10,892 bases of DNA from an uncultured euryarchaeote. Lineage in GTDB: Archaea > Thermoplasmatota > Poseidoniia > Poseidoniales > Thalassarchaeaceae. The stretch covers positions 1 to 10,892 of the forward strand of contig CALCOR010000376.1 in NCBI GenBank assembly GCA_937897085.1, in the 5' to 3' direction. Below, in pieces: positions 3,626-10,892 of the stretch. Each line of letters starts with the position of its first letter. The first letter of the stretch is position 1. A program made the position numbers and the translations under genes. A model generated the notes under the pieces. That model did not search any database. It worked only from the letters and a program-made list of their open reading frames with translations, and was not told the origin of the DNA.

Positions 3626-3642
3626 TCAACCCGAAGGGTTGA
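3626..3642 (+). promoter_or_regulatory. 7-bp perfect hairpin over the DUF106 start codon
   Basis: TCAACCCGAAGGGTTGA forms a 7-bp stem with a GAA triloop. It contains the possible TTG start (3639) and the A of the ATG start (3642). If transcribed it could hide the start codon, or it could be a DNA operator for the DUF106-cmk-cbf5 cluster. If translation instead starts at the in-frame ATG at 3696, the hairpin would lie in the leader. Confidence 0.35.
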
Positions 3643-4574
3643 TGCGGCACCCGAGGCGCGCTGAGGGCGTGCCAGCAGACCCCGATGAACAGCCGATGCC
3701 TGCGATGGGTTCGATGATGATGCCGATGCTGATGATGCTCGCCATGACCTCCCTGCTGTTCATTCCAGGTATCCGCCCATTGCTTGCCAACTCCGCAGAT
3801 TCGGTAATCGCTCCGCTCGTCCCGTTCCACGACAAGTGGTTCGTGCTTACCGTAGGCTTGGTCGGCTCGAGCATCATGGTGGTGAACACAGTGCTGCGTT
3901 CGTTCTTCATGGACCCGATAAAGCAGGCACACCTCGGACATCGCAATAAGCAGCTGCGCGTCCTGATGCGAGAAGCGACCCAGTCGCGCGACCCGGTGCG
4001 CCTTGAGAAGATCCAGCGTATGCAGCAACGCATGATGCCCGAACAGATGGAACTGCAGTCATCCACCATGAAACCGATGATGTTCACATTCATCTTCATC
4101 ATCGCCATCTTCTCTTGGATGGCCGCCAATGTCGAGGTTTTTCGTGTCGGTTACGTTTCGCTGCCGTGGAACCCGACCTGGAGTCTGACTGAAGGGAAGG
4201 TGATCATCTTCCCCGCTTGGATTGCCACCTACATCTGTCTGTCAGCACCACTCGGGCGGGTGGTCGACCGCCACATACGCCTGCTTCGCTATCGAACGCA
4301 TCCAATCGTAATTGCCGGAGAGCCACTCGATGAACCGCTGTTGGAGATGCTCAAGACAGACGACAAGAAGCCATCGCGAGGCAGCAGATCGGGGAGGTCA
4401 AAACGTCAGAGAAGGAAGGCGCGTGCATCCATTACATCAAGTCCAAGGCAGGATATAGCTGCCGCCGAGGCGCGCACTGATGCGGTCTGTCCGGAGTGTG
4501 ATGGAGATGCGGTCGAAAGGGCACCTGACGGGCGATTGCGCTGCGATGTGTGCCGGCACACATGGAGGAGATGA
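3642..4574 (+). CDS. DUF106 family (EMC3/TMCO1-like, Oxa1 superfamily) membrane protein with C-terminal zinc ribbon
   Basis: The protein belongs to the archaeal DUF106 family, related to EMC3, TMCO1 and the YidC/Oxa1 insertases that help place proteins in the membrane. Visible features, numbered from ATG 3642: a first membrane segment at about 22-44, a second at 65-87, a basic Gln/Met-rich cytoplasmic coiled-coil hairpin at about 93-140 (typical of the superfamily), a third segment at 145-165 and a fourth at 186-205. A basic linker follows (240-270). The unusual part is a C-terminal zinc ribbon: CPEC (C283, C286) and CDVC (C301, C304). The start is uncertain: TTG at 3639 or ATG at 3642, both inside a hairpin, or ATG at 3696 just before the first membrane segment. 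It leads a cluster with cmk and cbf5; its stop is 7 bp before the preferred cmk start. Archaeal DUF106 genes commonly sit near secY, adk, cmk and truB, which supports the assignment. Confidence 0.88.
   Translation: MRHPRRAEGVPADPDEQPMPAMGSMMMPMLMMLAMTSLLFIPGIRPLLANSADSVIAPLVPFHDKWFVLTVGLVGSSIMVVNTVLRSFFMDPIKQAHLGHRNKQLRVLMREATQSRDPVRLEKIQRMQQRMMPEQMELQSSTMKPMMFTFIFIIAIFSWMAANVEVFRVGYVSLPWNPTWSLTEGKVIIFPAWIATYICLSAPLGRVVDRHIRLLRYRTHPIVIAGEPLDEPLLEMLKTDDKKPSRGSRSGRSKRQRRKARASITSSPRQDIAAAEARTDAVCPECDGDAVERAPDGRLRCDVCRHTWRR
4564..4570 (+). promoter_or_regulatory. Shine-Dalgarno sequence GGAGGAG deciding the cmk start
   Basis: A strong purine SD motif lies inside the last codons of the DUF106 gene. 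It is 11 bp upstream of TTG 4582, after which the protein reads as a normal NMP kinase N-terminus. The motif also overlaps an out-of-frame ATG at 4571, which does not open a recognisable product. Confidence 0.55.
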
Positions 4575-6341: not shown

Positions 6342-8780
6342 TCATTTGAATCGGCGGATCTTGCTGGGGCCTACTTGGAACGCCAGTATGGTGACCAGTA
6401 TGATTCCCCCCGCCAGCGTCCATAACATAGGCGTGGAGACCGAAAGCCCTCCACTTGCAGGTTGTTGGTCCCCTCCTTCTTCTTCGCTGACCGGTGGTTC
6501 CACAGTGACTTCGCGGGATGCCTCGTTGTTCTCCTCGTTGGTCTCTTGGATGTCATGCAGTGGGTCGACGACCACCCTGATGCTCGCTGAGTCACCCATC
6601 ATACCGACCTGCCAGTCACACGACGTGGAAGCGAGTTGGTCGGGAACGATTACCGGGATGCTCGAGGAGGTGCCCACGAGCTGATCATCGACGTAGCAGC
6701 GAACCAACACCAGGTTGGCGGCCGAGCGTCCCGAGTTGCGCACCCACGCGGTGATGGTCACGACATCACCTTGGGTGACGTTCACGGCCTGTTGACCTTG
6801 CTGGAAATACTCGAGGGTGATCTGCTCGATGAACAGGTCAGGCTCCGCCGTAGCGAGAACCCCGATGCTGGTCTGTACCGTGTTCGTACCGTCCGAGATG
6901 GTGATGATGACATCGAACGATCCTTCGGCGATGGGCTCCAGAAGGAGGTTTCCTGACTGATCGATGGACGCCCACGAGACATCAGTGTTGAACTGCAGTT
7001 GTGATAGTGGTGTGTCGACATCCTCGACGCCCAACTCGATCACCAGAGACTCACCCACCTCTACCTGCACTTCGAGCGGCAGTGGCGCGTGGGTGGGGGC
7101 GTCCTCCACCTCATTCACTGTCACGCTGAAGTTGCTGATCCAAGAGTTGCCCCGCTCATCTTGCACTTGCACCATCACGGTGGTCTGTCCATGCTGCTCG
7201 GGTTGCTGACTGACCACCAATTGTCCATCCACGACCGAGACGGTCAGCAGCGATGTATCCCCTGAGTTGGCGCTGACCTGTAGATTCTGCCAAGCGGTGA
7301 TGTCGTCGTTGCATGTCGAGAGCATCGGAATCACTGCTCCTGAGGCATCCTCGTCGAGTTGCCTGTCAGTTATGTCGTCGCACGACGGGTCGCGGTCCCA
7401 TTCGACCACGAACCCACCGGAGAGAATGATGTCGTCCACGACCACCACTGTCGTCTCTGCGTGACCATCGGACGACCACTGGAAACGGGTCCTGAGCCCG
7501 ATGTCTATCTGTTCACCTGCAGCTGGAAGCAAATGCCCCACCGGAATGGAGTGGCTGAAACTACCGAGTATCAGTGGCAAGTCTACCAGCACCACCCCTT
7601 CGAAGGCGACCCTGAGCGTGCTGACGTTCACGACCAGATCTTCGATGGCCCCCGATACGTGACCCGACACGGTCACCGTGGGGTCGTTTATGTCCGCGCG
7701 CACGCTAGCGAGGCAACCGTCCAACAGATCGACCTTGAATTCCAGGAAGCGGTGGTCTGGCAACAGGAAGGGATCGTTCAACAGCATGTATCCAAACCAA
7801 TTCTCTGCGTCGGCACTGCCGCGAACCTCGACACTGGCATTTCCGGTGGTGGACATATGCACCCGCCCCCATGATTGACCGTACGGCCGCTCCTGCACAG
7901 TCGAAATCCATGTCCCACCTGTAGCCGAGTCGATGAGTTCCAAGCCACATGGGCTCTGAGCCAGGTTGGTCGTCTGTCCGAGTGCAAGGTTGAGGTCGAT
8001 CACCGGAGACGCGCTCAGCAGAACGCTAGCCTCAGCCTTGGCGATCTCGAACGAGTACCATGATTGGAAGTAGGTCGCGTGGATTCCGACCGCATCGATT
8101 TCGACACGACTGTCATCTGTCGCTCCCACTGAATTGTAGTCGATGGTCACAGAGACGTTAGCAAGGATTGACCACGTCCATGATTCGAGCGAATCGAGTG
8201 GGATTGCTGCCGGATTGCCCGACATGTGGTCGATGGAGGACTGCGTGTGTGCGTACGTGCGCACCAGTTCAGTGCTACCGGGCCAAGAGACGATGAAGCG
8301 GACATCGTCCTGCTGCAGCGAGTCGGGTATCGCGAACGAGACGAGCAGTGTCACGTTGGTCAACTCACGATCCGAGACTGCACTGAGATCGTATCCAGAC
8401 AGCGTAATCTCCTGTCCGCTGCTGTACCAGTAGGCGCCGTCAGGGAATCCGAGCGTGTTATTGCTGTTGGTCAACGAGGACTCAGTCGCCCATGCAGTGG
8501 TGGAATCCCTCACCTCAGGACGAGAATGGGTGAACGACAACACTCCGTCAGCGACCATGGTTGTCGTATAGTCAGCAGGTCGACTCTCAAATCCTGCTTG
8601 ACTCGACAGAGTCCAGTCGGTGGCGTCATCGAAGGTCCCCTCAGGAAACAGGTCTACGGATTCAGCCCGGATGACCGTATCCGCAATCACAGACGGAGTA
8701 AGCGGCAAGAACAGCCCCGACAGTAGCAGCGCCAGAACTGTCAAGGATAGCCGAGACCTGAACTTGTGGACATCCTGCAT
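6342..8780 (-). CDS. Secreted, membrane-anchored surface protein with cadherin/Ig-like and CARDB domains
   Basis: An 812-residue cell-surface protein of unknown specific role. Residues 1-33 are a Sec signal peptide: basic start, hydrophobic core at 11-29, likely cleavage after 'VIA' (31-33). Residues 34 to about 460 are beta-rich with many N-x-S/T sites and no family I can name. Residues 461-562 resemble a cadherin-like module (DEDASG start, ending 'SVTVNEVEDAP'), and 563-645 a second Ig-like module with an acidic 'EDVDTP' loop that could bind calcium. Residues 646-761 are a CARDB domain, shown by 'NSGRSAANLVLVRCYVDD' and the ending 'IQETNEENNEA'. After an acidic/Gln linker come a membrane helix (about 785-803) and a basic end (KIRRFK). 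This is a tail anchor and also the layout of archaeosortase-processed proteins. Cysteines fall in pairs, so disulfides are likely. A leaderless start fits: a GGATTCAA octamer lies about 30 bp upstream and no SD is present. Confidence 0.9.
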   Translation of the reverse strand: MQDVHKFRSRLSLTVLALLLSGLFLPLTPSVIADTVIRAESVDLFPEGTFDDATDWTLSSQAGFESRPADYTTTMVADGVLSFTHSRPEVRDSTTAWATESSLTNSNNTLGFPDGAYWYSSGQEITLSGYDLSAVSDRELTNVTLLVSFAIPDSLQQDDVRFIVSWPGSTELVRTYAHTQSSIDHMSGNPAAIPLDSLESWTWSILANVSVTIDYNSVGATDDSRVEIDAVGIHATYFQSWYSFEIAKAEASVLLSASPVIDLNLALGQTTNLAQSPCGLELIDSATGGTWISTVQERPYGQSWGRVHMSTTGNASVEVRGSADAENWFGYMLLNDPFLLPDHRFLEFKVDLLDGCLASVRADINDPTVTVSGHVSGAIEDLVVNVSTLRVAFEGVVLVDLPLILGSFSHSIPVGHLLPAAGEQIDIGLRTRFQWSSDGHAETTVVVVDDIILSGGFVVEWDRDPSCDDITDRQLDEDASGAVIPMLSTCNDDITAWQNLQVSANSGDTSLLTVSVVDGQLVVSQQPEQHGQTTVMVQVQDERGNSWISNFSVTVNEVEDAPTHAPLPLEVQVEVGESLVIELGVEDVDTPLSQLQFNTDVSWASIDQSGNLLLEPIAEGSFDVIITISDGTNTVQTSIGVLATAEPDLFIEQITLEYFQQGQQAVNVTQGDVVTITAWVRNSGRSAANLVLVRCYVDDQLVGTSSSIPVIVPDQLASTSCDWQVGMMGDSASIRVVVDPLHDIQETNEENNEASREVTVEPPVSEEEGGDQQPASGGLSVSTPMLWTLAGGIILVTILAFQVGPSKIRRFK

Positions 8781-8984: not shown

Positions 8985-9626
8985 TCAATCTCCGTTGAGG
9001 ATGTCCGCATCGATTTCGTGTCCCATACGCTCTACCTTGGTCGTCAGATAACCGAAATTCTCGTCGGATAGGCCTGCAACTAGCGGCATCTGTTCAATCA
9101 CATCGATGTCAAGTGAGCGAAGCTGCGCGAACTTGTCTGGATTGTTGGTGAGCAAGGATACCTTGTCGATGTCGACTCCCCTCAGAATCTCAGCTGCAAC
9201 CCTGTAGTCACGCGCGTCCACCGGATGACCTAGCAGCAGGTTGGCGTCCAGCGTGTCAGCGCCTCGGTCCTGGAGATGGTAAGCGCGGATCTTCTCGCGC
9301 AGCCCGATGCCACGCCCCTCCTGTCTAAGGTAGATCAGGCAGCCCCAGCCGCGCTTGTGGATGGCGCTGAGAGCAGCCTCCAACTGCGCGCCGCAGTCAC
9401 AGCGCAGGCTGCCGAATGCATCTCCAGTCAGGCATTCAGAATGAATGCGGACGAGCACGGGGTCAGGCCCAGACATGTCACCCATAGTCAGGGCGACGTG
9501 GTCGAGGTTCTTTCCATCCTCGTGAAAGACGCGAATACGAAATTCACCATGCGCGGTAGGCAGCCGTGCGTCGGGCGGGACTTTCGTCGACTCGGAGACG
9601 GCGAGAACATTCTCTGTGTCACTCAT
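8985..9626 (-). CDS. ribA: GTP cyclohydrolase II (riboflavin biosynthesis)
   Basis: RibA opens the imidazole ring of GTP, releasing formate and pyrophosphate, as the first committed step of riboflavin synthesis. From ATG 9626 the protein has 213 residues, near the usual 200. The zinc site is 'HSECLTGDAFGSLRCDCG' (62-79), with C65, C76 and C78 as ligands. The catalytic block 'YLRQEGRGIGL' covers 99-109, 'DTLDAN' 124-129, 'LGHPVDARDYRVAAEIL' 132-148 and 'LLTNNPDK' 158-165. This is a stand-alone RibA, not fused to RibB. The frame extends upstream to 9650, but ATG 9626 is preferred: it lies 4 bp after the tusA stop, and a G-rich GGGGTG stretch (9634-9639, minus) is a possible SD. Many archaea make the first intermediate with the unrelated ArfA (GTP cyclohydrolase III), so this bacterial-type enzyme is notable. 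Confidence 0.95.
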   Translation of the reverse strand: MSDTENVLAVSESTKVPPDARLPTAHGEFRIRVFHEDGKNLDHVALTMGDMSGPDPVLVRIHSECLTGDAFGSLRCDCGAQLEAALSAIHKRGWGCLIYLRQEGRGIGLREKIRAYHLQDRGADTLDANLLLGHPVDARDYRVAAEILRGVDIDKVSLLTNNPDKFAQLRSLDIDVIEQMPLVAGLSDENFGYLTTKVERMGHEIDADILNGD

Positions 9627-9630
9627 TGTC

Positions 9631-9888
9631 TCACACCCCTTCACCGGCACGAATCAGGAATCGGAATTCACCTGCCACGTCCTCGAGCGATACGAGTTCA
9701 GCACCGACTCTGGCGAGTAGCAGCGGGATATCATGCTTTGTCTCCGGATCATCCGCCAACACCTCCAGCAGCTCACCGGGGCTGATCTGTTGCAACACCC
9801 GCCGCGTCTCGTGTACTGGTACCGGGCAGAGGTAGCCCACCACATCCAACCTATGCGCCGGGTCGTTTCCGTTCTGTTCAACTGCCAT
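9631..9888 (-). CDS. tusA: TusA/SirA-family sulfur carrier protein
   Basis: A small protein (85 residues) of the TusA/SirA/YeeD fold, cytoplasmic, which carries sulfur as a cysteine persulfide. The family signature is the Cys-Pro-x-Pro motif near the N-terminus, here 'LCPVPV' with the active Cys at 21, preceded by 'LDVVGY' as is usual. The rest fits the fold: a helix ('HETRRVLQQI', 26-35), a turn 'SPGELLEVLADDP' (36-48), a second helix and a final strand 'EFRFLIRAG'. The exact sulfur acceptor cannot be told; tRNA thiolation, molybdenum cofactor or another pathway are possible. It is separated from ribA by 4 bp, so the two are almost certainly co-transcribed, although no direct biochemical link is obvious. 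A GGTTCAGA octamer lies about 35 bp upstream of the start. Confidence 0.88.
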   Translation of the reverse strand: MAVEQNGNDPAHRLDVVGYLCPVPVHETRRVLQQISPGELLEVLADDPETKHDIPLLLARVGAELVSLEDVAGEFRFLIRAGEGV

Positions 9889-9985: not shown

Positions 9986-10892
9986 ATGGCAGATGTGCCT
10001 CGAGGCAGCGATGACATCTCCATCGAGGAGTTGAGAGAGCAGGTCGTGTTCATGCTCGGCGTCATCGTCGTGCTGCTGGGTGGGGAGTTAGTCTACCGTT
10101 GGCTGACCGACCCAACAGACTCGCTCTCGTGGATCCAGGTGGCTGACGCTTGGATTTGGAACAGCCTTCACTCCATGTTGTTCGGCTCCAGCTCAGTGAC
10201 AGTGTTGGAGAGCACCTACGGCCTGCCCACAGTGATGGAGTTCGACCACTCCTCGTTCTATCAGCCGATTCCGCTCGAGGTCACCGATGAGTGCGTGGGT
10301 GTGCATGAGGTCGTGTTCGTCTCGCTGCTGATCGCAATCTCTCCGGGAGTGCCGGGGCGCTTGAAGGTCCGGGGAATCCTTGCCATGGCAGTCGCGCTGC
10401 AGATGATCAACATGGCTCGTCTGCTCGTTCTCTACCCGCTGGCTGTCAGTGGCTGCCAAGCGGATCCGGGTGTCTACGGATGCGAGGAACCGATGTGGCG
10501 GTTCCACGAATTCATGCTGCGTATCGGTTTCATGCTGCTCATCGTCGTCGGCTGGCTGATCTGGTTCGTAGTCTCCGATGGCGCAGGACATCTGCGCCGC
10601 CACCAGCGGCGCATAGAGAAACGTGGCCCTGTCCAGCGGCGGCTTGCCATGCGTGAATCGCTTCCGGACTGGTCGAAGGCGGTGCTGACGGTCGGACTGT
10701 TGCTAGCGGCGGCCGGAGTGTACACGTTGGCGTTCGACGATGAGGCACGCCAGCATAAACTGGAAGCAGAGGGGTGCGAAGACATCATCTCATCGGCGTG
10801 TGGCAGGGAACTGCACGAATGGGATGACATCTCGGGAATAGCGCTGCGCCAACTGCTGCTGGGCGCATCACTCGTCGCAATTGCCACAGTGA
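9986..10892 (+). CDS. Archaeosortase/exosortase-family membrane transpeptidase (3' partial)
   Basis: The frame from ATG 9986 has no stop before the window end (302 codons visible). The family comprises multi-pass membrane cysteine proteases that cut a C-terminal sorting signal and attach surface proteins to a lipid or other anchor. The predicted triad is in order: Cys103 in 'DECVGVHE' at the outer end of a helix, Arg145 in 'MINMARLLVLY' (the family's N-x-x-R helix), and His174 in 'WRFHEFMLRIGF'. Membrane segments lie at about 18-38, 107-119, 129-152 and 176-197. Beyond the usual core there is an added part: a very basic loop (201-223), another helix (231-249), an outer stretch with Cys264 and Cys272, and the start of a further helix (285-302). 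It diverges from tusA. Overall identity to named subfamilies cannot be judged, so no symbol is given. The triad context makes the family call fairly strong. Confidence 0.82.
   Translation, partial: MADVPRGSDDISIEELREQVVFMLGVIVVLLGGELVYRWLTDPTDSLSWIQVADAWIWNSLHSMLFGSSSVTVLESTYGLPTVMEFDHSSFYQPIPLEVTDECVGVHEVVFVSLLIAISPGVPGRLKVRGILAMAVALQMINMARLLVLYPLAVSGCQADPGVYGCEEPMWRFHEFMLRIGFMLLIVVGWLIWFVVSDGAGHLRRHQRRIEKRGPVQRRLAMRESLPDWSKAVLTVGLLLAAAGVYTLAFDDEARQHKLEAEGCEDIISSACGRELHEWDDISGIALRQLLLGASLVAIATV

Follow-up and report, generated by a model that had tools for sequence, protein, structure and literature searches.

Archaeosortase A (ArtA) is among the described systems closest to the enzyme considered here: both belong to one superfamily by profile and are multi-helix membrane enzymes whose active site combines Cys, Arg and a third residue; ArtA is recognised by TIGR04125 and serves PGF-CTERM tails. 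In one report on Haloferax ArtA, Cys173, Arg214 and Arg253 are described as critical (PMC9263693), and another proposes, for Haloferax, that the ArtA thioester intermediate is resolved by archaetidylethanolamine (PMC7157517). In rhombosortase systems dedicated enzyme–target pairs are known, and dedicated targets tend to adjoin the gene of their enzyme (PMC3237569). We found no archaeosortase work on Thermoplasmatota, Poseidoniales or marine groups in the open-licence literature searched and, among the matches listed, no biochemical data on the subfamily described below.

The window, by which we mean the whole stretch of 10,892 nucleotides analysed here, is the entire contig C376, one of the 376 contigs that make up a genome of 1.87 Mb, and its source is, we infer, a member of the Poseidoniales (Marine Group II). 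An archaeosortase-family open reading frame begins with an ATG at 9986 and stays open through base 10892, the end of the contig (9986..10892, + strand), thereby covering residues 1-302 of a 319-residue protein. It belongs to a real gene, truncated where the contig stops, and the part beyond the window could be recovered: contig C61 of the same genome repeats residues 271-302 at 100% identity and continues into the missing 3' end, and the complete protein is present in the database as P0001, with 319 residues. Because 35 of the 59 genomes searched, its own included, encode a window-type homologue, and these relatives are 30-89% identical, a chance open reading frame is excluded.

The original prediction had placed this protein in the exosortase/archaeosortase superfamily on its letters alone, and profile searches bear that placement out. 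Residues 97-195 (10274..10570, + strand) match the generic exosortase/archaeosortase signature of NCBIfam, TIGR04178, at 23.8 bits, only 0.8 bits above the cut-off of 23; relatives score up to 42.7 bits with the same profile, and PF09721 is matched in 4 of 19 aligned members and carried by many among the best 120 of 240 database relatives. Since the relatives score higher and some carry PF09721, superfamily membership is sound despite the borderline window copy, which itself matches no family in Pfam. None of the named subfamily profiles in NCBIfam is passed by the window protein or by the relatives scanned: archaeosortase B (TIGR04144) reaches 16.2 bits against a cut-off of 150, and archaeosortase A (TIGR04125) returns no row for the window protein at E values up to 10 and at best 20.5 bits among five relatives scanned, below its cut-off of 75. 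Judged by sequence comparison, the window protein represents a real, conserved and unnamed archaeosortase subfamily with a lineage-specific hairpin, within a family that is itself already known.

Conservation was assessed over 157 distinct homologues (158 collected, one exact duplicate removed), for which a database search had listed the best 120 of 240 matches; P0005 (255 residues, with an altered C-terminal part), L006 (with unknown residues) and the short L196 had been left out beforehand. Cys103, Arg145 and His174 occupy the positions and the order originally predicted, and each is invariant (157/157). Cys103, the proposed nucleophile, lies in a DECxGxHE motif (10292..10294, + strand), Arg145 in an NxxRLxxxYP motif (10418..10420, + strand) and His174 in what is an FHxF motif in the window protein (10505..10507, + strand). 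Cys, Arg and His (or Arg), in this order within the core, are expected of superfamily members, and all 157 homologues carry each of the three residues; the complete list of invariant positions is C103, G105, H107, N142, R145, P151, H174, W193 and C264. Two further cysteine pairs stand out. The outer loop between the Arg and His helices (10454..10483, + strand) contains Cys157 and Cys166, both of which are present in 153 of 157 homologues and both missing in the other four (all of genus g2), with neither ever found alone. As this both-or-neither pattern suits a disulfide, Cys157 and Cys166 are probably bonded. A later outer segment (10775..10801, + strand) contains Cys264 and Cys272, both kept to within about 3 alignment columns in 157/157, and these probably form a second disulfide.

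An AlphaFold2 model built on 40 sequences (mean pLDDT 86.4, pTM 0.70) has helices at residues 13-41, 48-66, 106-117, 124-159, 168-196, 199-213, 228-250, 252-263 and 270-301. Cys103 is found just ahead of helix 106-117 (block pLDDT 77), Arg145 inside helix 124-159 (pLDDT 93) and His174 near the beginning of helix 168-196 (pLDDT 92). Searches by sequence and by fold gave no match among solved structures in the PDB. Segments 119-128 and 196-228 are basic and segments 152-171 and 251-278 acidic. Taken with the helix limits, this charge pattern would set Cys103, the outer part of the helix that bears Arg145, His174 and the two pairs of cysteines outside the membrane and the basic loop inside. The pattern is not uniform, because both ends that the topology places inside are acidic, namely the N-terminal 17 residues (mean K+R 1.5, D+E 4.3) and the C-terminal tail (K+R 4.7, D+E 7.7). 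The helix limits and most, though not all, of the charge pattern agree with convergence of the predicted active site, and in the predicted topology Cys103, Arg145 and His174 would meet at the outer face of the membrane.

Beyond the core lies an extra C-terminal module (residues 215-302; 10628..10892, + strand), which in the model and the 157 homologues consists of a cytoplasmic strand, helix 228-250, an outer segment and helix 270-301. The elements that had been read from the DNA after the core, a basic loop, a helix, an outer segment with C264 and C272 and a further helix, are real and all conserved; the whole series, ending in an acidic tail, is carried by 157/157. The window-type protein has 124 of its 319 residues beyond the TIGR04178 match, compared with 19 in one Poseidoniales ArtA and 17-37 in four short relatives. 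A search of 389 genomes from the phylum with the family profile found matches in 92; the matches extending past model position 224 all belong to two families of the order. Outside the order, 10 of 10 matches end at or before that position (five come from a sister family within the class). In eight of these ten proteins the chain ends 3 to 33 residues beyond the match, L187 is truncated where its contig stops, and L188 continues for 89 charged, non-hydrophobic residues that contain no membrane helix; none of the ten has a membrane helix after its core match. The module is thus additional, as had been proposed, being absent from ArtA and from the ten relatives outside the order. One divergent Poseidoniales protein, L196 of genus g20, ends 14 residues beyond the match, where the helicase gene abuts its own. 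In the tree L196 falls among the window-type sequences with weak support (84/77), and because of this grouping its lack of a hairpin looks like a secondary loss. A natural hairpin-less protein beside hairpin-bearing cores makes the function of the hairpin directly testable.

TIGR04178 matches occur in 57 of 59 related genomes, and 55 of 59 have a second, stronger copy; G018 and G055 are those in which only the window type was seen. All 30 second copies fetched are recognised by an ArtA-type profile seeded with 6 of their number, none matches the window-type profile, and the one checked against TIGR04125 scores 106.1 bits (cut-off 75). Since this ArtA-type copy sits in 55 of 59 related genomes, the window type is a distinct enzyme. 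The suggestion of a distinct subfamily is borne out by a tree of 45 sequences from the phylum: ArtA-type and window-type sequences fall on opposite sides of a 99/99 split, and a long-branch warning applies to distant rows. The window-type enzyme is encoded in 23/23 genomes of family f2 and 12/36 of family f1, and 33 of the 59 genomes encode it together with an ArtA-type copy. Within f1, the genomes that carry the window-type gene are the larger ones (1.6-2.1 Mb), and those that lack it are mostly the smaller (1.2-1.7 Mb), a pattern expected if the gene was lost during genome reduction. A further size difference concerns the ArtA side: in the sister family these proteins (L202, L203, L204, L207) have open frames of 477-560 residues and the 30 fetched Poseidoniales ArtA-type proteins are shorter, 307-414 residues, so the longer ones may, from their length, carry an extra domain.

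The surroundings of the gene help to trace its history. In the window, the archaeosortase gene is preceded by a gene whose product we take to be TusA/SirA-like (9631..9888, - strand), by one that presumably encodes a RibA-like, GTP cyclohydrolase II-like protein (8985..9650, - strand) and by one for an 812-residue secreted CARDB protein with a C-terminal transmembrane segment (6342..8780, - strand; PF07705, 59.7 bits), the last found in 57 of 59 genomes. Genes of at least 80 residues were called with a custom gene caller in 26 stretches carrying the enzyme, several of them short. The sortase gene and the helicase gene, presumably of the DEAD-box type, were each called in 25 of these, against 24 for the RibA-like gene, 14 for the secreted-protein gene and 11 for the TusA-like gene. 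Sortase and helicase are convergently encoded, and in all 24 loci measured 0 to 26 bases separate their stop codons. In the sister family, which is probably Marine Group III, a RibA homologue 45-52% identical to that of the window adjoins the short orthologue in 5/5 loci; no RibA homologue stands beside the relatives in the five stretches from other families (0/5). Because the sister family has this same neighbour at every locus, the position beside ribA is ancestral to the class at least. Among 23 enzyme-minus genomes, the RibA-like locus was examined in 21, and the TusA-like match is present in all 21. In 15 of them 28-262 bases separate the helicase gene from the TusA-like match, too few to accommodate a sortase gene, so that the locus is intact without it; in the other 6 the helicase was not within the fetched flank. 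Several genera thus have this locus with a clean absence of the window-type gene. The enzyme-minus genera are g3, g5, g6 and g8-g11, and the enzyme-plus ones are g1, g2, g4 and g7 along with all of f2 examined. The intact minus locus together with the ancestral position suggests that it was most likely lost in part of family f1. Such a clean on/off pattern among related genera could serve to find the substrate of the second enzyme. Elsewhere in the window, positions 1-2702 encode a long protein with repeated GMDDAPPPPP units at its start, acidic stretches and a zinc-ribbon-like CPVC...CSAC end, a similar cysteine-rich end being present in most homologues. A 311-residue membrane protein with a zinc-ribbon-like tail (3639-4574) presumably resembles the archaeal YidC/EMC3-type insertases.

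Compared with known systems, the window type differs from ArtA in several respects. The ArtA core is late and terminal (residues 222-317 of 336 in L079), whereas that of the window type spans 97-195 of 319 and is followed by the hairpin. The third active-site residue is Arg253 in Haloferax ArtA but His174 in the window type, and the motif around the Cys is CSxLQSM in ArtA and DECxGxHE in the window type. The short, ribA-linked archaeosortases of the sister family have the same core motifs and stand on the same side of the tree as the window type. Unlike it, they end 3-11 residues after the profile match, in a mostly basic tail, and have neither the hairpin nor the second Cys pair. Archaeosortases B and D, pacearchaeosortase and exosortases G, M, W and X give weak core matches far under their cut-offs. 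Fused exosortases are extended family members in which a core is joined to additional parts, and exosortase W likewise has a core plus added parts (its profile has 494 positions), but it matches at best at 19.8 bits against a cut-off of 425. The likeness of the window-type hairpin to the added parts of such extended members is at the level of layout.

These comparisons lead us to regard it as likely, with good confidence, that the gene encodes a second Poseidoniales archaeosortase, distinct from the ArtA of the same genome, that is a Cys-Arg-His tail-processing enzyme with a lineage-specific hairpin. By analogy with Haloferax ArtA, Cys103 would attack the C-terminal sorting tail of an exported protein, the tail would leave as a peptide, and the protein would stay bound to Cys103 as a thioester until it is passed to an amine acceptor, as proposed for archaetidylethanolamine in Haloferax; Arg145 and His174 would act with Cys103 in these steps. 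The enzyme thus described probably trims and re-anchors cell-surface proteins in abundant marine archaea, and the hairpin on its outer face, closed by a disulfide, probably serves as a gate that limits access or as a docking site for a particular substrate or partner. A stronger version of this idea, in which the enzymes form a distinct class whose Poseidoniales-added, disulfide-locked hairpin alters the choice of substrate or acceptor so that non-PGF proteins are anchored, and whose C-terminal EEE tag recruits it to a partner, seems to us unlikely.

It had also been suggested that the window-type enzyme has its own sorting signal, which is possible, but three candidate substrates fail to track the enzyme in presence, absence or tail type. 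The 812-residue CARDB neighbour occurs in 57/59 genomes, with or without the enzyme, and the CARDB tails listed share no common motif ahead of the membrane helix. Tails of the LPAPG/LPAAS type were, among the first tails examined, confined to enzyme-plus genomes; a profile built from 5 of them brought up a single family of secreted proteins, about 650-700 residues long. This family is present in 57/59 genomes (58 records from 57 genomes), and its [LIV]P-type tails are found in 31 of 34 enzyme-plus records (the exceptions being G003 and G023, with a plain anchor, and G032, which is cut off) and also in 23/23 enzyme-minus genomes, as well as in G002, a genome 60% complete in which the enzyme was undetected; enzyme-minus G012 and G014 have an LPAPS tail in an unrelated family too. 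Within the family of L201:1878-3962, the tails vary around [LIV]P, from LPAPG to LPFPS, IPSSG and LPGFS. Choice-of-anchor T proteins (NF041740) are over the cut-off in 53/59 genomes, again with or without the enzyme; those of Poseidoniales (L348-L377) have a PGF-like segment followed mostly by acidic residues, often with an APGL end and not a basic-cluster end. In G036, a sample of about 40% of the genome's length gave 591 called genes; a crude filter, set to keep proteins with a C-terminal helix and no other, retained 23 of these, and no second tail class emerged.

PGF-CTERM tails (TIGR04126) are over the cut-off in 30/59 genomes, enzyme-plus and enzyme-minus alike, and 29 of the 30 fetched loci have a readable PGF-like tail; at a loose threshold weaker matches appear in all 59 genomes, which mean little because 12/14 control genomes also match, two of the 14 controls being over the cut-off. 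The PGF-CTERM tails are best assigned to ArtA. The window-type enzyme could be a redundant helper of ArtA that acts on all or some of these tails and lacks a separate signal. Such a role would fit the occurrence of PGF-CTERM tails in enzyme-plus and enzyme-minus genomes, the lack of a second tail class tracking the enzyme and, in the sister family, the choice-of-anchor T protein that is encoded near the short orthologue and has a PGF-like tail. We consider this doubtful, however, since the deep split from ArtA, the different motifs and the invariance of the extra module speak for a separate function, and in the sister family 4/5 genomes have an ArtA-side copy as well.

A single dedicated substrate, with a sorting tail outside the sampled set, is a tentative alternative that we would still put on the less probable side. 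A lone target could be missed because the sample covered about 40% of one genome's length and used a crude hydropathy filter, and dedicated enzyme–target pairs have a precedent in rhombosortase systems (PMC3237569). In those systems, however, the targets tend to be adjacent (PMC3237569), and here no adjacent gene qualifies, the secreted neighbour at 6342-8780 occurring regardless of the enzyme. The unusual added hairpin with its invariant Cys and the failure of all three candidates would also suit a former archaeosortase that is now a non-catalytic membrane protein, such as a chaperone or insertion factor, yet the catalytic Cys, Arg and His are kept in 157/157, which is unexpected after loss of catalysis and makes this reading highly improbable.

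A minor observation concerns the very end of the protein. The last three residues (317-319 of P0001) are EEE in 147/157 homologues and at least two of the three are acidic in 157/157, while the tail ahead of them varies in length. In the sample of about 40% of G036, EEE ends 13 of 556 genes (sortase included) versus 0.76 expected from shuffling of the last 12 residues, and a rival source of the EEE ending would be a pyrimidine-rich terminator of the converging helicase gene.
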